A stretch of DNA of 64,000 bases from Choricystis sp. odSpoLacu1 (taxonomy: Eukaryota; Chlorophyta; Trebouxiophyceae): the NCBI GenBank assembly GCA_958009055.1, contig OY253649.1, forward strand, positions 620,001 to 684,000, read 5' to 3'. Below are positions 1,283 through 17,700 of the stretch, in pieces. The notes below the pieces were generated by a model that saw only the letters and a list, made by a program, of their open reading frames with translations, was not told where the DNA came from and did not search any database. Numbering within the stretch: position 1 is the stretch's first letter; each line of letters opens with the position of its first letter. Position numbers and translations under genes: made by a program.

Positions 1283-3646
1283 CGAAAAATAAAGGGGCGG
1301 GCGCAAGAGCGTCGCCACCAACCCACCCTCACCCACCACCCTCCCCACACACACACCACCCCACGCACCCCACCCAGTTCGGCGTCCCCCTCTACGGCGC
1401 CACCCTGTCGGGCGAGGTGCAGTTTGTGGGCGGCGACGCGGAAGGGTGCACCCCCTTCTCCGAGCGCGTGCGCCCCGGCACGCCCGGCTTCCCCGTCGTC
1501 CTGCTGGTGGACCGGGGGGACTGCTACTTCATCGAGAAAGCGTACAACGCGGAGAAGGCGGGGGCCCAGGTGAGAGGAAGGGGGAGGGCGGGGCTGCAGG
1601 GAAGGGACCGCAGAGACGCAGCCCCCCCAAAAAAACACACGCACACACGCACACCACCACCCACCCCACCCCACCCCGTCTCCACACAGGCCGTCATCGT
1701 GGCCGACTTCAAGGATGAGAAGCTGCTGACCATGTCCGCCCCCGAGGACAGGCCCGAGATCTCCAGGCTCAAGGAGGAGATCACCATCCCCACCGCCCTC
1801 GTCACGCGCGGCGTGGGGGAGGCCCTCAAACACGCGCTCAGCCGCCACGCCCGCGTCGTGGTGGAGCTGGACTGGTCCGACTCGGTCGCCCACCCCGACT
1901 CCCGGGTCGAGTGGGAGCTGTGGGGGTCGCCCGCGGACGGGTGCGGCGCGCCGTGCGACAGGCAGACGTCGTTTGTCAAAGCGATGGCGTCCCGGGCAGC
2001 CACCCTCGAAGCGGACGGCTACACCAAGTTCACCCCCCGCTACGTCATGCACGGGTGCGGCGGGTCTCCCTCTGAGGACGTGTGCGCGCGGTCGTGCATC
2101 CACAAGGGGAGGTACTGCGCGTTTGCGTCGCCCTCCGCGGATGGTGATCGCTCGTCGCACGCCATCCCGGGGCGCGACCTCGTCACCGAGGCCAAGCGCC
2201 GCCTGTGTGCCGCCGAAGCCGCCCGCAAAGCCGACAAACCGGAGGCGTGGTGGGCGTACGCGGCCGAGGTGGCGACGTCGTGCACACTGGCCGCCGGAAA
2301 ATTCAACGACCCCCAGTGCGCCAAAGCGGCACTCACGGGCGCAGGCCTGGCCGCCGCCAAGGTGGAGGCGTGTGTGGGGGACGTGGACGCAGACATCGCG
2401 CCCGACGTGCTGGAGGAGAACTATGATGCGCAGGTGAGACGTGTGGGTGGCAGGACCAAGGACACAGCGGGGTGGGTTAGCGGGGTGTGTGTGTGTCCAC
2501 ACGCACAGCCACCCACCCCCACCCCCACCCCCACACCCATCCACAGGGCCTGGACGCGTTCGGCTCCTCCAAGATCCTCATCGTCCCCACCGTCGTCATC
2601 AATGGCGCCCAATACCGCGGCCGCCTGGACGCCGGCTCCGTCACGCGCGGCCTGTGCGCCGGCTTCTCCGAGGTCACTGAACCCGCCGCCTGCCTGACAG
2701 CGGACATGGAGGTGGACGAGTGCGCCGCGGGCACGCACACGTGCTGGACGCAGGGCAGCCAGTGGAGCGCGTGCGTCGACACGTTTCGCGGGTTCAAGTG
2801 TCAGTGCCCCTTTGGGTTCCGGGGGGACGGGACGCACTGCGACGACATTGACGAGTGCGCCGAGAAGACGGCGCTGTGCGACCAGGTGAGTTTTGGGCGT
2901 GTTGTTTTTTTTTGGGGGTGAGGACAGCGAGCAAGGGGGACACCACGTTACGTGCGTGGTCACGCGCGCGCACGCACCACCCTCGTCCCTGCACCCCACC
3001 TCAGATCTGCACCAACACGGAGGGCGGCTACACCTGCGCCTGCCGCGACGGCTTCCGCCTGTACGGCGGCGCGTCCGGCCCGGGCGCCTGCTTCCCTGTC
3101 GACCGCTGCGCCGCCGGCAACGGCGGGTGTGAGGAGGGCTGCACCTCGTCCGACGGCGTCGCCTCCTGCCAGTGCCGGGACGGCACCCGCCTGGGCCCCG
3201 ACGGCAAGAAGTGCGTGGACGTGGACGAGTGCGGCGAAAAGACGGCGGGGTGTGAGGGCGGGTGTGAGAATCGGGACCCGCGCACGGATGGGGTGCCCTT
3301 CGTCTGCACCTGCCCCCACGGCAGGGCGGTCGACCCGCTCGCCCCCAAACGCTGCATCGATGTGGCCACACTGGCGTCGCGGCTGGGCGTGGACGCTGCC
3401 TCTGTCGGGGGCCGTGGCTTGAGCGTGGGCGCGTTTGTGGGCGTCGCGGCCGCCGCGGCCGCGGTCGCCGTCGTCGCGGGGGCCGCCGTCCACTCGTGGC
3501 GCGTCAAGCGGGAGACGGCGGCCGAGGTGGCCGCCATTCTGAGGCAGTACATGCCGCTGGACGGGGATGAGGGGGGGGCGGGGCTGGCGGGTTTCGCTGC
3601 GGCGGCCTCGGCGGCGCGGCCGGCCGGCGACGACGCGGCGGCGTGA
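978..3646 (+). CDS. Vacuolar sorting receptor (PA domain, EGF repeats, YMPL tail)
   Basis: Five exons (978-1124, 1378-1569, 1690-2433, 2547-2885, 3005-3646) join in frame to 687 residues. In order: a signal peptide (about 1-22), a protease-associated domain (about 40-180), the VSR-specific Cys-rich central region, a run of EGF modules including a calcium-binding DIDEC motif near the end of exon 4 and DVDEC in exon 5, one transmembrane helix (about 614-638) and a short cytosolic tail. The tail has YMPL at 656-659, the tyrosine motif that plant receptors use for adaptor binding. By family, it carries soluble cargo from Golgi/TGN to the vacuole. The length exceeds the usual plant size of roughly 620-630, mainly through the extended EGF region. 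Intron 1 contains a 56-base T run. Confidence 0.93.
1227..1282 (+). repeat. Poly-T tract, 56 bases, in receptor intron 1
   Basis: An uninterrupted run of T, far longer than any other A/T run in this GC-rich window. It sits inside the first intron of the vacuolar sorting receptor gene, roughly 100 bases from each splice site. It may be a microsatellite or the poly-A tail remnant of a minus-strand retrotransposed RNA. I see no flanking target-site duplication. Confidence 0.95.
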
Positions 3647-4529: not shown

Positions 4530-4815
4530 GGCGGCGACGAAAGGCGAGAGCACTCCGCGCTTCGAGCGAGCGCGAAAACGAGAGTTGCTCCCTCGTCGGG
4601 GGTCGGAAGAGCCTCACACTCAATTCTCACTGAACGGGGCTCGTGCGAACACACGCCGCCCCTCGCGCCTCTGTGCCCCACCCAGCGCTAGCTCGCCTCT
4701 CGCGTGCTCCAGCGCCCCACCATAAGACCCGCCGGCCCGGGCGGCGCGAACGTCTGCACACGCACGCGCGCGCACCGGCCCGTCCAAGGCAAACACACAA
4801 ACGCACGCCGCGGCG

Positions 4816-7800
4816 ATGTCGTCTGACGACATCATGGCGTCGGGCTCGTCCCAGGACGATGACGTGAGTGACACGGGACGCGTTGCGGTGGGGGGGGGAG
4901 GGTGTGGGAGGAGCACGGCGCGCGGCGGGGGGCGGTGTGATGCGGGGGGTTTGTGCGCATTCGGTGGGGCCGTGTGCTGACCGCCCTCCCTCCCCCTCTT
5001 TTCCCTTTCCCCCCCCACAGCGCCGCGGCTCCAAGAAAGAGGCCATGAACATCCTCATGCGGTGAGTGGACGGAGTGACAGAGGGTGGTGTGAGAGAGAG
5101 GGCGACACAAAAGCTGGGGCAACGCCTCGACGGCGTGTTTTTCGCACGGGGGGAAGCAGGGGGACCGCCTCCAGCGGTTGGCGCCCCCCCTCCCCCCCAC
5201 CCCTGCCGCCCACCCCTCTCGCCGCTGCGTATGGGCCGCCACACGACATCGGTGGGCGGGCGGGGAGGGTGGAGGTCGCGTGTGGGGCAGAGGGAGGGGG
5301 CAATTCGCCTGGCTAGAGGCAGAGAGCGCACGCGCTCGCCGGCGTTGCACCGCATGCGTCTGCCTCTTGACGCCCCGCTTTTTCTCGCCCCCTCCTCCCC
5401 CCTCCCTCCCCCACCGGGGTGTCGCTGTCACTCTACTGAGGCAGGAGTGGGGGCAGGGATGGCAGGAAGGAGCGTCACGCTCCTCCCTGCCAGCGAGAGA
5501 GAGAGACCACTGCGCAAGCCCGCGCTGCCGTTTTCGACCAACCACTTTCCCCTCTCTGCTTCCCCCACACCCGCCCACAGCCTCGCCGAAGCCCTCGACA
5601 CCGACGGTGGCGCCGCCCCCCGGGGCGGAGACGCCGCCTACGACGAAGAGTACACGAAGGGGAAGGGGGTGAGTGACGCTGGGGTGAGAGGGGTTGGGGG
5701 GAGACGGGAGGGTCGGCACGTCCGAGAGAAAAACCGCGCTCACTTCTTTTTTCCCCCCTTGCTTTCCCCTTCCCACAGTATGGCTCCCCCCTGGACACGT
5801 ACCAGTCGCACGGCGGCCGCACCACCACCATCAAGACACAGAAGGCGAAGGCGGTGGAGGAGTCCGAGGACGAGGACGAAGAGGAGGAGGTGCGTTTGGA
5901 GGGAAGAGGGGACGAGAGGGGAAAGAAGAGGAAAAAAAGGGTCACCGCGCCTCCCGAAACGCGGCCTTTTTTGACCCCACACCTCCACACACACTCACAC
6001 AACATACTCCCACCCACCCACCACACAGTTCGAGTACGTCCCCCAAGCCTACGACGAGGATGTGGAGGCAGCCGCGCTCGAGGAGCGCGCCGCCTTCCCC
6101 CCCGTCCCCGCCGACACCGTCCTCCCGTCCGCCATCCCCGAGGGCTACACCTTCCACAAGTACGACCGCAAGACGAAGAAGAACTGGGGCGGCATCGCTG
6201 TCGTGTCGTTCTACTCGCTCGCGCTGATTGTCTACTTTTTTGTGCGGGTGACGAAAACGATGGACCTGGGGCGGTACCTGCCGTACGGCGTCATCGTGTT
6301 CATCATCGAGGTGAGTTGGTTGGGGGGGGGAGGGGGGGGGGGTAATGAGTGTGTGTGGGAGAGAGGAGGGATTGGTTGTGTGTTTTCGACTCCGTTTTTT
6401 TTTACTCACCCTTTCCCTCCCACACCCACCCCACCAAACAGATGTGCGGTGCCACCACCACCCTCCTCTACGGCGCCAACCTGGTGCTGGACCCTGTGTC
6501 TGAAGCCCCCACCCCAGACGACACATCAGACGTGAAGGGCATGGTCAAAGTGCGCGTGCCGTACCACGTGCGCGTCCTCGTGCCCTGCTACTCTGAACCG
6601 CTGGAGATTGTCGCCAAAAACTGCGCCGCTGCTGCGACCGCCTACCTGCCCTTCGGCTGCCGCGTCACCGTGTACCTGTGCGACGACGGCAAGGACAGGA
6701 AGAAGCGCAACTGGTGCCTGCAGGGCGAGGGGCGCGCGCACGGCGTCGTGTACGTGTCCGGGCGCAAGCGCGCGAGCGGCGAGATGAACGGTAAATCCGC
6801 CAACCTGAACAACTGCATGAAGATGATCTATCCGCAGGCCAAGCCCATCCCGCCCAACGAGATTGTCTGCGTGTTTGATGCCGACCAGGTGGCCAACTCC
6901 GACTTCTTCCTGAAGACGCTGTACAAACTCGACGCGGGCGACGACGTGGCCATGGTCCTCTCCCCCCAGGCCTTCTACAACACGCGCCTCAACGCCGACA
7001 TCTTCAACCACTCCAACATCCACTTCTGGGAGTATGCGCAGCACGGTGAGCAGTGTGTGGTTTTTGGGGGGGGCGGGGTGAAGAGGGGGGAGAGAGACCG
7101 CGCGCGCACACCCTCCCAACCCACCCTCCAACCCACCCTCACCCCACTCCACCCCCACCCCCCCACCTCACGCAGGCTACGACGCCCTCGGCTTCATCTC
7201 GTGCACGGGCACCAACTTCCTCATCCGGTCGGCCGCCTTCCGCGACGCCGGGTGGTCGCCCGAGTACACGCTCACCGAAGACTTTGCGCTCGGCATGGAG
7301 CTCAAAAAGAAAAAGTGGGAGTGCCGCTACGTGGAGGAGTACCTGGTGGTGGGCGAAGCCCCCGAACAAGTGCGCAACTGTTTCCAGCAGCGGTCGCGCT
7401 GGTGCAAGGGCCACTTTCAGATCGTGTTTGGGCCCAAAAACCCGATGCTGCAGAAGGAGCTGTCGTGGCCCATGCGCATCATGTACTGCTCCGGCGTGTG
7501 GTCCTACTTTGTGGGGGCCATGACGACCCCGCTGTTCATGCTCATTCCGTTGCTGACAATTTTGGCGGGCATGTTCCCGATCGTCGTGTCCAAGTGGGCG
7601 GCCGGGGCGCTGACCGTGTACGTGCTCGGCCAGTCGGCCGTCCTCAACTTCATGCACAAACGGTCGCACGCGTTCCCCATCTTCTTCGCCACGATCGCCA
7701 ACAACATTCTGTGGTGGACGTTTGTCAAGGCGTGCTGGAAGTCGCTGCTGTCGTTGGTCCCCGGGCGCGCCAAGATCACGTTCAAAACGACGATGAAGGG

Positions 7801-9840
7801 CGCGGCCGGCCGCCTCGCCAACTCGGCCATCGGTGACCTGTGGATGCCGGCCCTGTCGTTCATCATGCTGGCCGTCACCCTGGGCATCGGCATCAAGAAG
7901 CTGGCGCACGGGCCGACCGTGGTCACGACGCTGTCCATTTCGATCGTGTGGATCGTCTACTCGATGATCCCGCCGACCCTCCTGCTGATCTACGCCACCG
8001 GCATGCGGGGCCGCGTCCTGGCCGCCGCCTGCAAGCTGGCCTTTGTGATGACGTACGTGTCGTCGTTGCTGGCCCTGATGCTGCTGTGGGCGGTGTACCC
8101 GGCCAAGTACGACTATGGCGCGGCGACGGGCGCGTCGCTGAAATTCTACGAAGCCTCCCGCCTGGGCGACCTGCCCGCGGGCAGCCGCATCGGGTTCCGG
8201 GGGTCCACCTTCCCCTACGAGCGCGCCCCCCGGTTCGCGTTCGACGACCTGACGGGCGGGTGGGCCAACGGCGGGGCGGTGGGGACGGTCAAGATGACCG
8301 TCACGACCGCGTTCACCACCACCATGCTGGCGTGGGGCCTGCTCACCTTCCCCAAGGGCTACGCCCGGGCGGGGGAGACCAAGTCCGCCCTGGCCGCCGT
8401 CAGGTGGGGGTCGGACTACCTGTTGAAGACGTTCCACCCGGAGACGGGCGCGCGCGGTGGCTACGCCATGGTCTACCAGGTCGGCAACCTCACCCTGGAC
8501 CACGCCCTGTGGACGACGCCCGAGAACATGACGGAGACGCAGGTCAAGCGGCCTGCCTACGTGGTGCACTCGGGGGATGGCGCGTCCGACCTGGCGGGTC
8601 AGATGGTGGGCGCGCTCGTCTCGTCCGCGCTCGTGTTCCGGGAGTATGGCAACGACACCGCCACCTACGACAAGCTGATGACGGCGGCGGGGGGGCTGTA
8701 CAAGCAGGTGGGTTTGAGAGTTTGGGCGTGGTGGGGGTGGGGGTGGGAGGCAGTGGGGGAAGCAAGGACGGCGGGTGGTTTGTTGGGGGGGTGGTTTTTT
8801 TCAAAGAGAAGAGACAAAAGCATTACCCTTGCTCACTTACCCCACTTACTCATCCCCCCTCCCCCTCCCTCCCAACCCCCACCCAGGCCACCCGCCACGA
8901 AGGCTCCTACACCTCCAAGTTCAAGTACGACTGCACCTCCAAGTACGCCCGCGCCCGGGTCACCTCCAAAGCCCCGCGCGCGGCGTGCCCGCCGCCCACG
9001 TCGTTTGCCAAGGGGTCTGCGCTCGTCTTCTACAACTCCACCTCCTACCGCGACGACCTGCTGTGGGCGGCCGCCTGGATGTACCGCGCCACCAACGACT
9101 CCGCCTACCTGGCCGACGTCAACAAGTACTATGGCGCCCACGTCGACCTCGAGGGCGACACCGACGCGGCCCTCACTTTCGGGTGGGACAACGTCTTCTT
9201 TGGCGCCAACGTGCTGCTGGCCCAGTTGACGGATGAGGGCGCGTTCCACGTGGCGGTGCAGGACATGCTGAAGCAGTGGATCTGCTCGACGACGGGCAAG
9301 GTGCTGTTCACGCCGCGCGGGCGCGCGTGGAACCGCGCGTCGCCCACGACGGGCGGCACCGCCAACGCGGCCCTCCTCTCCCTCATCTACGGGCAGCTCG
9401 CTTCCAAGTCTGTCCCCCACGACAAGCGGGACCGGTACACCTGCTTCGCCCGCGCCCAGATGCGGTACGTGCTGGGCGACGGCGGCCGCTCGCTCATGGT
9501 CGGCTACGGCAAGCGCCCCCCCGTGCGCGTGCAGTCGCGGTCGGCGTCGTGCCCCAAGGCGCCCGCCCCCTGCGACAAGGTGCGCAACCTGTTTGGCCCC
9601 GGCGCCAACCCCAACGTGCTGACGGGGGCGGTCGTCGAGTTCCCCACGTTTGACGACACGTATGCGGATGTGCGCGCGTCGAACGATTCACGTGTCTCGA
9701 TCGAAAACAACGCGGGTGTGACCTCTGTGCTGGCGGGGCTCAACCAGGCCACGGGCACGTGGGACCAGTGCCTGCAAGGGTTTGGTGTGCTGACGCGGGA
9801 CAAGGCGGTGTGCGACGCGCCGATTTATGGGCCGCAGTGA
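4816..9840 (+). CDS. Cellulose-synthase-type GT2 fused to a degenerate GH9 domain
   Basis: Eight exons (4816-4863, 5021-5061, 5581-5668, 5779-5889, 6029-6310, 6442-7045, 7176-8707, 8887-9840) join in phase to 1219 residues. Residues 1-148 are hydrophilic, with an acidic run (about 86-96), followed by two membrane helices (about 150-200). The cytosolic family 2 glycosyltransferase domain has all catalytic motifs: DD at 271-272, DAD at 336-338, TED at 425-427 and QxxRW at 463-467. Several further helices follow to about 705, with an FKTTMKG segment as in bacterial-type synthases. Residues about 725-1219 match GH9 endoglucanase (DLTGG, AFTTTMLAW, RDDLLWAAAWMYRAT) but lack the DAGD aspartates, the signature His and the C-terminal Glu. 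Six N-x-S/T sequons in this half fit a luminal or external location. The predicted product is beta-1,4-glucan, probably cellulose. No PilZ domain is visible. Confidence 0.88.
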
Positions 9841-10391: not shown

Positions 10392-13300
10392 TCACGCACC
10401 ACCGCCCGGCGCCGCCGCTGCCGCCGCCTGTTGTTGTTGCGCCGCAGCCTGCGCCTGCAGCGCCCCCCCGATCCGAAAGTCGCGCGCCACCGCGCGCCTC
10501 GCCCCTCGCATCAGGTTGACGCGGGCGGCGACGCCCAGCCGGATGAGCCTCGCCTCAAAGTCTTCCACCGCAAACACGACGTCGGGGGCTTTGGCCGCGC
10601 GCCCGCCTCCACCCCCCCCTCCACCCGCATTCTCCGCTTCATGCAGCAAGGTGGCCACCGCCGGCGCCAGCAGCTTGTGGGCGCCATCCACCGCCCTCTG
10701 GAAGGCGGGGCGCAGCTCGGTGCGGCCGAGCGCGCCGCCGCCGCGCCCGCCATCGGCCGCGCCGCGCGCGGCGGCCGCCATGGCTCGGTACGCGCCCCGC
10801 ACGCAGGCCAGGACTCGGTCGGCGGCGCACGGGGCGGCGGCCGCCAGGCCGCGGCAGCCGGCCAGGGTGGAGAGGGGGGGGGAGCAGGGCCGCGACGCGG
10901 TCGCACGCGTCGTCGTCGACCGCCGCCACGCACGGCGGTGGGGGGGCTCCACCCAGTGCCGCCCGCGCGGCGCGGGCGCGCCCCAGCGCCCAGTCGGCTT
11001 CCGTCAGGGAGGATGCCAGCGCGTCCGCCAGCGCGCCAGCGGCGGCGGGCAGCGTATGGGCCGCGATCGCGGGCAGCGCGACCGACGCGGCGGCGGCGGC
11101 GCCATCGCCGTCGCCCCCCGGCACCAGCACCTCCGCCACCGCGTGCGCCACGTCTGCCGCGACGGACGCGTCACCGTCGGGGACGGTGGAGGCCAGCAGC
11201 AGGGTGACCAGGGCGCGCACGGCGGGGCCGTGGGGCAGGGGGCGGCCGAGCGCGGCCCGCGCGGCGGCCGCGAGGGCGGCCCGCTCGGGCGGGGACGACA
11301 CGCTGGCCGCGGCCGCCAGGACGGAGGCCAGCACATCCACTTCACGGTGGTTGCCGTGTTCAGCCAGGCGGGTGAGGGCGGGCACCAGGGCGGCGGCGCC
11401 CGTCGCGTCACCATCATCAGCGGCAGCGAGCAACGCCCTCAGCTCTCTCGGGCCGCCCGCACCACGCAGCAGGGTGGCCACGGCTTGCACGGCCAACAAG
11501 GGCAGACCGTCCCCCGGGTCGCGCGCGCCGCGGCGGGGCACGCCCGTGGCGGCGCCACCCACCGCGCGGCCACGGTGGCAGTAGGCCAGCGCCACCAGGG
11601 ACGCGCACTTGAGCAGGGGGGGGGCCAGGGTGGACCGCACAGCCTCACCCCTCGGCCCGGGCGAGGTGGAGGCCGCGAGGGCGGCCGCCGTGCGCAGCGC
11701 AAACGATTGAAACGCGGCGTCGCGCGCGAGCCGCGCGCCGCGCGGCGGCGACGCGGCGTCGCGCGGCGTGGGGGAGGGGGCGGGGGCGGAGGGAGGGGAT
11801 GGCATGCGGTCGTCACACACCACGCCCAACAGGGCGGCGGCAGCGGTGGGGGACAGGGCGGGTGGCGGCGGCGCGTCGAGCGCGGCGCGGCCGCGCTTGG
11901 CGTTTTCGCCTGCTGGCGTCGGCATGGTGGCCAGCAGCCCCCGCAAGCGGTCGTGCACCCTGAACGCGGCCGCCAGCGCGTCCACCGCGTCCCCCGAGGG
12001 CGTGTCCCCGGCGCCCGCCCCCGCCAGCGCGTCCTCCATGGCGATCTCGAGGCACCCCGAGAGCGTGTGAGCGCGCGCGCGCGCGCGGCGTCGCCCTCGG
12101 GCGTCGCCTCCCCGATGCCGGACGCTTTGTCCAGGCCGTAGTCTTCTGGGACTGAGGCGGTGAGGATGTCGCGAGCGGAAGTGAAGGCGGCGGCCAGGTC
12201 GGCGACGGTGGGCGGAGGGTGCACCGTCGCGCTGCCGTGGTCGACGCCGCGCGCAGCCAGCACGACTTGCCGCGCGGACGCCAGCAGGGCCGGCAGCGGT
12301 TCCAGCAGCCGCCCACCGTCTGGCGTGGCGACCACCGCCTTTTCCAGGCGCAGCGGGGGGTAGGGGCCGCCGGCGGGGGCCACATAGGACGCGAGGTGGG
12401 GGGCCAGCAGCCCGTCGAGCGCGGCCGCCGCGCCCGCGTCGGCAGCGGCCACCGCGGGCGCGCCCTCGTACAGTGCCGCCCGCACGGACGGTTGCTGGGC
12501 CAGGCAGCGGCGCAGGAACGAGGTCAGCTCTGCCAGCGCGGACCCAGAGCCCCCCGCCAGCGACGCTGCTTGCGACAGCGGCGCCTGCGACGGTCCTGCC
12601 GCGTCGCCCCGCACGCGCGCTTCCGCAGTCGCCAGCAGCAGCAGACCCCGCACCGCGGCCGCGCGGGCGGGGGCGGCCCGTCCAAACGCAGACTTACGCA
12701 GCACCAGGGCGGCCGCATCCCGGGCGGCCGCCACCGCGCGGCAGGCGGGCCACAGGCCGGCCACCAGGTCGGCGCCGCGCGACGGGGGCAGGTTGCCCGC
12801 CAGCGCGAGCGCGTCGCGCACGGCGTCCGGGTGGCCCGCCCCCAGGTCGGCGCCGTGGGCGGACGCGATGCCGGCCAGGGCGGCGATATGGGCGCCGCCA
12901 CCGCCGTCGGGGGCGGCGGCGGCCAGGCGGGCGGTGGCCAGAGAAAGCACGTCGGACCGCGCGCTCCGGCTGCCCGCACCAAAAGCGGCCACCAGCAGGC
13001 GCACGCCCAGGCGGCCCCCCCGTTCAGCCGGCAGGCATGCATCCGCATCCCCCACACGCGCTGTCGCGGCCGCGTCTGGGGGCAGGGCCGAGGCGGCAGC
13101 CCCTCCTGCTTCGATCAGCGCGTCGGCCAGAGCGAGCGCGGGGGGCACGAGCACGTCGCCCCCGCGCGCGACGGCGGCCAGCAGCGCGTCCTCCAGGGCG
13201 GCTGCCGCGGGCAGGGGCAGGCGGGGCAGGGTGGCCGCCCAGGGCGACGTGGCGGCCGCTGCCGCCGCGCGGGAGGCGCGGGTGAGGGCGGACGCGAGCG

Positions 13301-14527
13301 CGTCGACCGCCGTGCCGCGCAGGCGTGGCACGCCCACCAGCGTCAACAGGGCTGCCGCCGCTGCGGGAGACGCCGCCGGCCGAGCCGCCAAGGAGACAGG
13401 CCACCCGCGCGCGCTCTCGGGGTCGGCTTTGGCGGCCAGCTCGATGGCCAGCAGCACGGTGGCGGCCGCGTCGCGCGTGGAGCGCGGCGCGCCCGCGCCC
13501 GCGACATCGTCCAGGAGAGCCACCAGACCCAGCAACGCGCCCGCCGCCGCTGCGCGCGGCTTTAAAAGCAGCAGCTGCCTCGCCAAGGCGGGCAAGTCGG
13601 CCGGGTCGCCGGACGCTGCATCGCGCAGCGCGCGCGCGCGCAGCGCGTCGGCCTGTGCGAGCGTCAGCGGCGCGCTCCGCAGCGCTTCCACCGCGGTCGC
13701 GGGCGGCGACGGCCAGGGGGCGGCCAGAGCGCGGTCGATGGCGGTGGCCGCCGCGTCCGCCGCGTCGCGTGTGGAGCCGGCGGCGGCGGCGTGGGCGGCG
13801 GCGGCCGCGATGAGGTCGAGGGCTGCGCGCGGGTGCGCGCGTTTTTGTTCGAGCGCGTCCACCGCCGACCGCAGCAGGGGGGGCAAGTCCCTGAGCGGCA
13901 GCGCCGCCGCCGCCCTAGCTAACAAGGCATCCAACCCGCCCCCCGGCTCGACTGACGAGGCGGCGGCGGCGGCGCCGTTGCGCGCGGTGGAGCTCAGCGC
14001 GCGCAGCGTGATCGCGGCGAGCGGCGCGGCGGCCGCGGCCGCGGCCGCGGCGTCGGGGGCGGCTTCAGCGGCGGTGATGTAGGCGTCCAGGATGTCCTGT
14101 GTGTGTGTGTGTGTGGGGGGGGATTGGTGTGAGGCGGGTGGCGGTGGAAAGGAGGGGTCGCCCTCCCCGCTACACCGTGCGATTGGTGCCCGCTGCGCCG
14201 CGACACGCCCGCTGGCACCCCAGTTTTCCCGCGTCTCAAGCTCAACACAATCACTCTGTGTCGAGACCAATGTGTCCGAGGCCGAAAAGAACAGGCTGTG
14301 GCGGCGGCAGAGGGTGCAATGCAATCCCAATTGCCCCCCCCCCCCCCCCACACACACACAACACGCACCTTGAACTCGCCCAGGCTCGCCCCCGCCGCCG
14401 CGTCCACCGCGTCCGTCAGCTCCTGCTCCGGCGTGTCCATCAGCAGGGCCACCAGCGCGGCCGAGGCGGCCGCGTCGCCGCCCGCTGCGGCGCGCGCTGC
14501 GGCGACCGCGGCGCGGGCGGCGTCCAT
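10392..14527 (-). CDS. FANCI: FANCI, Fanconi anaemia ID-complex subunit (frame broken twice)
   Basis: Exon 1 (14369-14527) and exon 2 (10392-14096) encode about 1288 residues of Leu/Ala-rich helical repeats, close to human FANCI (1328). The recognisable part is the C-terminus: FAVEDFEARLIRL, then ARVNLM, then ARDFRI, matching the conserved FANCI block of VNLM followed by a TSRDFKI-like stretch. FANCI pairs with FANCD2 on DNA and is monoubiquitinated during interstrand crosslink repair. The frame shifts in a GC-dinucleotide tract near 12,070-12,088 and again at a nine-G run (10,874-10,882). The two shifts compensate, and the middle part read in its own frame is a normal Leu/Ala-rich helical protein. 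I therefore annotate one gene with probable sequence errors. I cannot place the ubiquitinated lysine. Confidence 0.78.
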
Positions 14528-14739
14528 GGAGGGGCGTGGGGGTTGGTGGCGTGTGTATGTGTGCTTGGTGTCTGTGTGTGGTGGAAAGCGTGGAGAGAGG
14601 TGCCGCGAGGTGCGCGGTTTCTGTCAAATTCTGTGTGTCGACCGCCCCTCTTCTTCGCTGCAACTTGACGCCCACACAAAGGCGCGCCACCCCACACACG
14701 CGGCCCAGAGTGCGTTTCTGCGAAACCAAAACAATTCTT

Positions 14740-17700
14740 TTACAACGCGGTCACATCCACCCCCCCACGGTGCAGCGGGCTCTCCGGCGCCACGCCCACC
14801 GGCAACGGGTCCCCCCCCCACCGCGCCGCGGCGGCCAGCACCAACTCCAGCTGGCGCTCGGGCGCCAGGGTTAGACCGACGCCGTCGTCATGCTGTCGGC
14901 GTGGCGGTGGTGCGCCCACTGCGCCCGCCCCCACGACCGTGACGGGGGCCAGCGCGCGCCCGCGCGCGGCCGCCAGCGCGGCCGTCGCGCGCCGCGCGTC
15001 GGCGGCCGCCACGTCTGCGGCGCGCGCCAGCAGCCCTCCCTCCCGCCTCGCGGCGGCCAGCACACCGGTCAGCGTGCGCCCGGCGTCTGATAGTGGTTCG
15101 GCGCGCCAGCGGGCGAGCAAGTGGTCGCCCACCGCGCGCGCGGGCAGCGCGCCCGCGGCTGCCGCGGCGGTGCCGTCGAGCAGGGACGCCACCGCGGATC
15201 GGGTGGCGGGGTGGGACGCCCGCGCAGCTCGCACGACGTCGGCGACTGCGTCCAGGGTGGCCATCCACAGGCCGGCGCCGACGGAGGGGGGGACGTCGGG
15301 GGCGGCGCGGCGGCAGAGGCCGACCGCGTCGCCGAGGGCGGCGCGCAGCGCGGCGAGGGGGGCCGGGGGTGGTGGTCCCGCCCCCGCGGCGGCCAGCAGG
15401 GAGCGCCCGGTGTCTGCAACGCGGGCGGCCAGCAGGGCGGCGGCACCGGGGGCGTCGCCCAGGCGTTCTAGAAGGAAGGCTTGGGCGTCGGCGACGCCCG
15501 CGGCACGCGCGGCAGTCAGAGCAGCGTGTGGGCTGTAGGCTGCGCGCGACGCCAGAAACGGCAGCACGCCGCGCGGGTCGCGGGCGCACAGCAGCTGAAC
15601 ATAGGCGTCGCCCGCGCCCGGGTCGGCCAGCAGGGCGGCTGGGCCGGAGGACGGGGTGGCGCCCCCGACGCCAGAGGGAGGGACGAGCGCTGCTGCCGCC
15701 GCATACGCGCCCCTCAAATACCCAAACGTCAGGTCGGGCGCGTCAGCCAGGGCGGCCAGCACGGCGGCATGGTCGTCCGGAAAGTGGGTGGCCACCAGGC
15801 GGGCGGCGGCGTCGCCGTCGGCGGCTGCGAGCGCGGGCGCACGCGCGAGCAGCGCGGACCGCAGGCGCGCCCACTCGTGGCTGGACGGGGCCGCCCGGGC
15901 GAGGGCGCCGTCCGCGTACTCGAACGCGGTCGCCGGGTCGGACGCCAGCAGGCAGTCCAGGGCGGCGCCCGCGTCGCCGGCCGCGTCGTGCGCGGCGGCC
16001 TCTGCGCGCGCAAAGCCGGCCGCCCGCGCGAGCGACCGCGCGGCGGCGACGTCCAGGCCGGAGCCTGGTCCAGCAGACGCGGCGCGCAGGACGCGGATGA
16101 ACAGGGCTTCCCGGGCGGAGGCGGGTGGCGGGGGCGCACCCCCCGGCCAGGGGCCGAGGGCGGCGTGTTCTAGAGCAGCGTGCAGCGTCGCGGGCGGCGC
16201 GGCCGCGCGGCCGGCGGCCACCAGGTCGGCCAACAATCCCAGTCCCGCTGCCGCGCCGTCGCCCGTCAACGCGCGGCCGTCTAGCAGGGCGGCCACCGCG
16301 TCTGCGGCGGCTTGGGCGGCGGTTCGGGTGGCTGCCCCCGGCGGGCGCGGCGCGGCGGCCACGTCGCACAGCTCCCCCTGCAGCGCGTCCCACCCCGCCA
16401 GCCCCGCCGCCAGCACGCGCACAGTGGCTACGGGTTGGAAGGATGCCAGCGCGCACAGGGCGGGGGAGGGGCCAGGGAGCAAAGCGTCCAGGGCGTGGGG
16501 TGGGGGCGGCGTCGCGGCCGTGTCGCCTCCCCCCGACGCGTCTGCACCAATCGCTGCCAACGCAGCCGCCACCGACGCCGGCGTCGCGTGCAGCAGAAAC
16601 CCAAGTCCGCCAGCGCGTGCCCTGTCCGCAAGGTGGGGCGGCAGGTCGCCCGCGCCCGCCGGGAACGCAGTCCCCCGAAAAGCGCACCGCAGCAGCGACA
16701 ACAGGCGCGCGGCGGCCGCGTCTGCGCGTGGCACACCACCCGCCCGCCGCGCAGACACAGCGGTGGCCAGCAGCACGGCCGCCGGCGTGGCCACATCCCC
16801 CAGAGCCCGCACAAACACTGAGGCCAGGGCCGCCGTCGCGCCCGCCCGCGCGGCCGCGCGCGTGGCCGCGTCGAAATCCAGCGCCGCCGCGTCCAACGCC
16901 ACCAGGGCGGCGTCCAGGGCGGCCGCGCCTTCGGCACCCCCCTGGTCAGCGCACGCATCCACGATGGCGGCCACCGCGTCGGGGGGCAGGGCGGGCAGGG
17001 AGCCGGTGGCCGCGGCCGCCGCGGCTGCGCGCGCGAGGGGGGCCACGCCCCCCACCGCCTCAAACGCGGGCGCCAGCCTCGGCCAGGCGGCGTCGCCGTC
17101 GCCCAGGGCGGCCAGCGCGGTGAGAGCAAAGTCTGCGATGTCGCGCGCGTTGACGGGGGGTGGGGGGGTGGCCCCCAGGGCGGCCGCGGCCAGAGCGGCG
17201 ACAGTGTCGGCAGCCGCGGCTGCTGCCGCCCCGTCGGGCGCGCCCGCGGCCCGGGCGGCCGCCACCGCGTCCAACGCTGCATCCAGGGCGGCCGTCCACC
17301 TGCCTGCCGCCGCCAGGGCGGATTGACGAGCGTCGGGGGGGAGGGAGGTGACGAGGGTGAGGCGTGCGGACGCAGCGCCGCGAATCAGCAGCGCTGCCCG
17401 CCCGCCCGCGGCAGCGATCGGCGGCGTGGTACCCGGGGTGGCGTCCGCAGAGGAGGCCAGCGCCCCTCCCAGGTCCAGCGTGTCCACCGCAGGCGGCGGC
17501 GTGCCCTGCCCAGCCGGCGGCGGGCGTGACGGGTCGCGCAGCGCGAGCGAGCGCGCGCTGACGACGGCCAGCGCGCGCCGCGCACCCGCCACGCCCGTCC
17601 CCATCCACGCCAGCGCGGCCACGTCCTCGGCCTCGCTCCAGGTGGCTAGTTGTGTTGGAGGAGGCATGGAGGCCGGCGTCGCTGTCGCCGTCGTCGCTGG

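Follow-up and report, generated by a model that had tools for sequence, protein, structure and literature searches.

Why the synthesis of cellulose needs a cellulase is a long-standing question, whether that cellulase is KORRIGAN, the bacterial endoglucanase or the GH6 of tunicates. KORRIGAN is a separate, membrane-anchored GH9 enzyme in which a single N-terminal anchor is followed by an active GH9 domain that sits outside the membrane and works with the plant cellulose synthase (CesA). As for the synthases, the bacterial BcsA has four helices after its GT2 domain and a C-terminal cytosolic PilZ domain, and plant CesA has five such helices and an N-terminal zinc finger. The CesA of tunicates carries a GH6 domain without the catalytic Asp that many stand-alone GH6-1 homologues retain (PMC7464555). 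The closest described system is algal: Blanc et al. (2012) report four GH9-CesA-like fusion proteins from Coccomyxa subellipsoidea, add that Chlorella variabilis and Emiliania huxleyi also carry the CesA-like domain, and already draw the comparison with tunicates (PMC3446292). Here we analyze a CesA-GH9 fusion gene of Choricystis sp. odSpoLacu1 at 4816..9840 of a 64,000 nucleotide stretch (contig OY253649.1, positions 620,001 to 684,000; called the window, to whose plus strand the coordinates below refer unless another contig is named). The preliminary description of this locus knew of no described CesA-GH9 fusion in algae and is overtaken on that point by the Coccomyxa report. The bare fusion being known, what our sequence comparisons and models would add is a conserved loss of the catalytic residues of the GH9 half, fused copies that keep them, and a fusion in the reversed order, GH9-ankyrin-CesA.

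The gene has eight exons (4816-4863, 5021-5061, 5581-5668, 5779-5889, 6029-6310, 6442-7045, 7176-8707 and 8887-9840) with GT-AG introns, which translate into one protein of 1219 residues followed by TGA at 9838-9840. We compared the boundaries with those of a spliced alignment for which a Coccomyxa elongata protein (P0001), and not the preliminary gene model, served as the template. It reproduces exactly exons 2 and 4 to 7 and the points where exons 3 and 8 begin, disagrees at exon 1 and over where exon 3 ends, both in the low-complexity N-terminus, and ends the last exon 21 bases short of 9840. The single exon 7176-8707 encodes the TED and QQRSRW motifs, all five helices after the GT2 domain and roughly the first 200 residues of GH9. 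Because the junction lies inside this exon, no intron or stop stands between the two halves, and the fusion is therefore independent of any intron call. The Pfam scan finds GT2 (PF13632, residues 331-525, E 1.4e-19) and GH9 (PF00759, residues 705-1184) in the same protein. The earlier motifs and coordinates were correct, and the one-exon junction together with Pfam confirms its single GT2-GH9 protein.

The GH9 domain (8114..9732, with the intron 8708-8886 inside) matches the full profile, 1-444 of 444, with a score of 277 bits (cut-off 27.7; E 5.5e-82). A full-model match above the gathering score places it in the GH9 fold family, and the fold is present in the AlphaFold model that we used, which is of the relative P0015 and not of the window protein. 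The marks of an active GH9 cellulase, the base in DAGD and the acid in NEVxxDYNAG, are absent, and NGGA and RVSIENNAG are found instead. In the alignment with the termite endoglucanase 1ks8, its base motif DLTGGYFDAGD faces DLTGGWANGGAVG in the window protein, where GGWANGGAVG (8255..8284) has Gly in place of the base Asp. Its acid motif HNEVATDYNAG faces DSRVSIENNAG; here the row alignment puts NDSRVS (9682..9699) at the acid site, with Glu replaced by Arg1171 and an N-glycosylation sequon at Asn1168. At the PHHR active-site motif the alignment gives VQSRSAS (9529..9549), in which both His are gone and the Arg is retained. From its sequence, then, the GH9 half looks like a pseudo-enzyme. As an alternative catalytic Asp we considered one in the AGDLK stretch of some members and rejected it, as it is not conserved and the window protein has GTVK.

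This loss is shared across the clade of the window protein. The protein search covered 5.8 billion proteins with about 8000 candidates scored per search, so that counts are lower bounds, and it found at least 75 relatives of the window protein: 50 with GT2 and GH9, 19 without GH9 and 6 without GT2. We aligned 110 GH9 rows, of which 90 cover both catalytic columns; the 20 with a gap at either column were left uncounted, and among these, six fragments of the type of a fused copy on contig C16 (described below) show the base Asp and P0076 shows the acid Glu. Among the 90, Asp and Glu are both present in 39, neither is present in 51, and no row has only one. Since these two groups are defined by the catalytic residues themselves, the independent point is the agreement of the split with the tree. 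Six of the 51 are predicted proteins that lack GT2 (P0014, P0030, P0031, P0045, P0048 and P0071); two further copies from the same genome, on contigs C12 and C4, were read separately and are outside this number. The base position in the residue-less rows is Gly in 50 and Ala in one, and the acid position is Arg in 25, Trp in nine and another residue in 17, but never Glu. A sequon three residues N-terminal of the lost acid occurs in 33 of the 51 against none of the 39 rows with the residues; the 18 residue-less rows without it are twelve Chlorella-type rows, five of the group P0057-P0069, and P0025. In a GH9 tree of 51 rows (IQ-TREE, quick), the 30 residue-less rows all lie behind one branch with a Shimodaira-Hasegawa-like approximate likelihood ratio support (SH-aLRT) of 97, and the catalytic-residue state changes once. 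The loss has a single origin on this tree. Trp127, Asp213, Trp221 and Arg405 are kept in all 51 residue-less rows, and Tyr206 (94%), Trp253 (80%) and Arg361 (75%) are largely kept.

The GT2 half has the D, DxD, TED and QxxRW motifs and the flanking helices of a CesA/BcsA-type synthase. Its catalytic domain (residues 233-469, 6568..7408, with the intron 7046-7175 inside, from Pfam) contains DDG at residues 271-273, DAD at 336-338, TED at 425-427 and QQRSRW at 462-467, and the motif residues are identical in all aligned rows that cover them (80, 83 or 86 of 86). Hydropathy predicts seven membrane helices. Two precede the GT2 domain (residues 150-171 and 179-201, 6188..6474, with the intron 6311-6441 inside) and five follow it (residues 508-700, 7523..8101), in the same order as in the P0015 model. 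Among the latter five lies FKTTMKG (residues 594-600, 7781..7801), at what we take to be the place of the gating-loop motif of BcsA. The GH9 domain begins about four residues past the last helix. Five helices between the domains is an odd number, as a GH9 domain outside the membrane requires, and in a count over 22 homologs chosen by hand, N-glycosylation sequons are enriched in GH9 and depleted in GT2. The computed topology thus predicts GH9 on the far side of the membrane, as had been proposed, and the P0015 model agrees on the helices. The best matches among solved structures are cellulose synthases, and the protein would be a membrane-bound processive beta-glucan synthase, most likely a cellulose synthase.

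We consider it fairly probable that the window protein presents a pseudo-cellulase on the outside of the cell, which holds the emerging glucan or guides it. The cytosolic GT2 domain would add glucose to a beta-1,4-glucan, and the chain would exit via the seven-helix membrane domain, whose fifth helix after GT2 would put the C-terminus outside. There the (alpha/alpha)6 barrel of GH9 would start directly at the membrane, its fold and several cleft residues kept and its base and acid lost, and would most likely hold, align or pass on the chain at the exit, a 'catch and guide' or crystallization role. Cellulose as the product, glucan binding by the domain and the guiding of the chain are what we infer from these features. 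The tunicate parallel would be the strongest reason to take the non-cutting state as the functional state. Several points weigh against this proposal. Trp301 and Arg305 each occur in 97% of 33 reference rows but in none of the 51 residue-less rows, where His359 is kept in 4%; with these losses the cleft has a remodelled center, and glucan binding by the domain may be absent altogether. The GH9 half is less conserved than GT2, with 61% versus 70% identity to P0001. Finally, GT2 proteins without GH9, including a copy on contig C5 of the same genome, nest within the fused clade on the GT2 tree. Because of this nesting, the C5 copy and its relatives probably lost GH9, which looks dispensable in some paralogs, though some of the GH9-less database rows may be truncated.

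The main rival, which we regard as possible but rather unlikely, is that the GH9 barrel is a structural scaffold that does not bind glucan and serves oligomerization or the docking of wall proteins. The remodelled cleft center, a possible glycan at the cleft and the apparently intact fold in the model of a relative would all fit such a role. Against it, Trp127, Tyr206 and Trp253, presumably cleft residues as in other GH9 enzymes, stay conserved, though the fold alone could explain this. A different product is less probable still. Here GT2 would make another beta-glucan or a mannan, handled by the GH9-like domain. Sequence alone does not fix the linkage, the plant-type Cellulose_synt profile PF03552 reaches only 19.4 bits, under its cut-off of 24.7, and the PDB sequence matches include CslF6 (E 2e-8) as well as BcsA. 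Yet cellulose synthases are the best matches among solved structures, the GH9 fold is that of a cellulase, and for Coccomyxa, Calcofluor staining and protoplasts made with cellulase are cited by Blanc et al. (PMC3446292). Active trimming, in which the fused GH9 would be a functional endoglucanase and edit the chain during its synthesis as KORRIGAN does, is improbable. It can draw on the full GH9 profile and fold and on the C16 copy and metagenomic kin (P0080, P0081 and P0083) that keep base and acid, so that some fusions could trim. We nevertheless rejected it for the window protein, as both residues are gone here and in all 51 rows of the clade that cover both sites, and a sequon stands beside the acid position in 33 of them. 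Of the two roles first offered for the domain, trimming is therefore unlikely and glucan binding would be the better option. An assembly or gene-model error that merged two genes is hardly credible and was rejected: the gene model here is known from genomic sequence alone, but one exon spans the junction, both domains occur in 50 of the 75 relatives including ten named genera, P0044, P0063 and P0066 have transcript-assembly style identifiers and, as Pfam confirms, both domains each, and the same genome has three further loci with the CesA-GH9 order.

The named genera among the fused relatives are Coccomyxa, Myrmecia, Botryococcus, Trebouxia, Elliptochloris, Symbiochloris, Apatococcus, Chlorella, Auxenochlorella and Micractinium, all of which we take to be trebouxiophytes; the rest come from many other sources. 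The Coccomyxa proteins P0001, P0002, P0010 and P0015 have both domains, align over 91-99% of the query and fall into the same clade of the GT2 tree as the window protein, which makes the latter a trebouxiophyte CesA-GH9 fusion of the published kind. On this tree, rooted on two bacterial rows, the window gene has Botryococcus as its closest named relative (support 0.79), and a clade of Medakamo hakoo and Choricystis is given as sister of Botryococcus in PMC9871001. Two Chlorella models of about 1800 residues (P0032 and P0041) join CesA, a sugar-kinase domain (PF02782, D-ribulose kinase in the records) and GH9, and are probably neighboring genes merged in annotation. We also considered a ready-made bacterial CesA-GH9 pair, and found GH9 near none of 55 bacterial or archaeal CesA-like loci, sampled by two short peptide patterns and inspected up to 4 kb to either side; the positive control worked.

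Searches of the genome (14.6 Mb in 19 contigs) for GH9 and GT2, together with tblastn, gave four loci in which CesA is followed by GH9: the window gene on C1, C12:63500-71500 (L018), C4:311500-319500 (L017) and C16:264500-273500 (L019). The catalytic residues are lost in the C12 and C4 copies. The latter has in-frame TAA codons at 4715-4717 and 6010-6012 of the locus, for which a pseudogene, sequence errors or something odder are candidates; both stand at Tyr sites of relatives, with Phe at the 6010 site in at least one. The C16 copy retains base and acid in GGFYDAGDHIK and KSEVGIEYNAG, with one active-site His changed to Gln. Its model is uncertain between GT2 and the fifth membrane helix of the protein (TM5), and it crosses an apparent one-nucleotide frame shift within a run of ten C (L019, 3726-3845), which is a real lesion if it does not stem from a homopolymer error. 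A search with this copy found at least 45 proteins, nine of them with both domains, and eight of these nine (P0080-P0087) belong to its type and have both the base and the acid at all covered sites. A FastTree GH9 tree unites the C16-type and window-type clades (0.99) and a tree with a richer model leaves that node unsettled, so the two types may stem from one fusion or from two. A further gene of this genome, C4:1138000-1144000 (L022), encodes GH9 alone and keeps base and acid; two others, on C3 and C5, are CesA-like and lack GH9. A protein of 601 residues with ENA as its source (P0091) is 99.8% identical over 551 residues to the C3 protein, which suggests that the same or a very close species is present in another public data set. 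Another protein (P0124, 875 residues) has precomputed Pfam matches to PF01270, which we take to be GH8, a bacterial cellulase family, and to a CesA-type GT2, and is possibly another synthase-hydrolase fusion. GC content across the window is 61-79% in 2-kb steps. The neighbors of the fusion gene are an EGF-repeat protein upstream (2852-3646, plus strand) and a FANCI-like protein downstream (11439-14750, minus strand).

Two further loci, C7:3800-13700 (L020) and C1:763500-773000 (L021), encode paralogs of about 2000 residues, 81% identical, in which the order is reversed: GH9 comes first, preceded by what by eye is probably a signal peptide, and is followed by a single helix, ankyrin repeats, GT2 and then helices. 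Their GH9 has DAAD and NEPALDYNAG and their GT2 has LDCD, TED and QRLRW. The C7 model was fitted to pieces chosen by eye and the C1 model was fitted to C7, but in both copies one open exon runs from the C-terminal part of GH9 through the helix and the ankyrin repeats to the first helix of CesA, and an independent metagenome prediction (P0076) joins the C-terminal GH9 part, ankyrin and GT2 in one chain. The search that found P0076 gave at least four matches, this one included, and the Scenedesmus match has ankyrin and GT2 without GH9. The reversed proteins stand beside a Nannochloris ankyrin-GT2 protein on the GT2 tree, at a distance from the window clade, and on the GH9 trees, too, their GH9 falls away from the window type. 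Because both domains group apart, the reversed fusion is, on the evidence of these trees, independent, a second solution to the same coupling. The fused GH9 domains that keep base and acid (C16, L020 and L021) may be active.

Compared with the known systems, the window protein resembles KORRIGAN in the predicted placement of GH9, next to a cellulose synthase and outside the membrane, but KORRIGAN is, as generally understood, a separate active enzyme, whereas here GT2 and seven helices precede a fused GH9 that has lost its catalytic residues. It differs from BcsA in that the Pfam scan finds no PilZ domain (PF07238), with GH9 in its place. It shares with plant CesA the five helices after GT2, against four in BcsA, and differs in that PF03552 stays below its cut-off and no plant-type zinc finger is among the Pfam hits. 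With the fusions of C. subellipsoidea C-169 it has in common the same two domains in one trebouxiophyte protein, and P0010 shares its clade; the part of PMC3446292 available to us does not discuss catalytic residues, topology, residue-keeping copies or a reversed order. Nor did we find an earlier description of the catalytic loss, the C16-type copies or the reversed fusion in the open-licence literature, which leaves most subscription papers outside. The analogy with tunicates made in the preliminary description is also drawn by Blanc et al. (PMC3446292). The tunicate CesA (GT2-GH6) likewise joins a CesA to a cellulase-family domain that has lost its catalytic Asp (PMC7464555). Its GH6 belongs to another hydrolase family, so that the likeness is parallel and the hydrolase ancestry is not shared; the C-terminal domain of the window protein is GH9 with no GH6 among its Pfam hits, and a whole-genome GH6 search gave no match, but neither did its controls. 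We put forward tentatively that the capture of a cellulase by a cellulose synthase, and its conversion into an extracellular chain handler that does not cut, has happened repeatedly, once in green algae with GH9 and once in tunicates with GH6. The algal genome studied here also has the residue-keeping C16 fusion and the independent reversed one. If this reading is true, one cell carries cutting and non-cutting cellulase modules hard-wired to its synthases. A cellulase that is covalently attached, loses its cutting residues once and stays attached would argue that its useful part can be the handling of the chain, and the residue-keeping copies of this genome form a natural pair with it in which cutting and handling could be compared.

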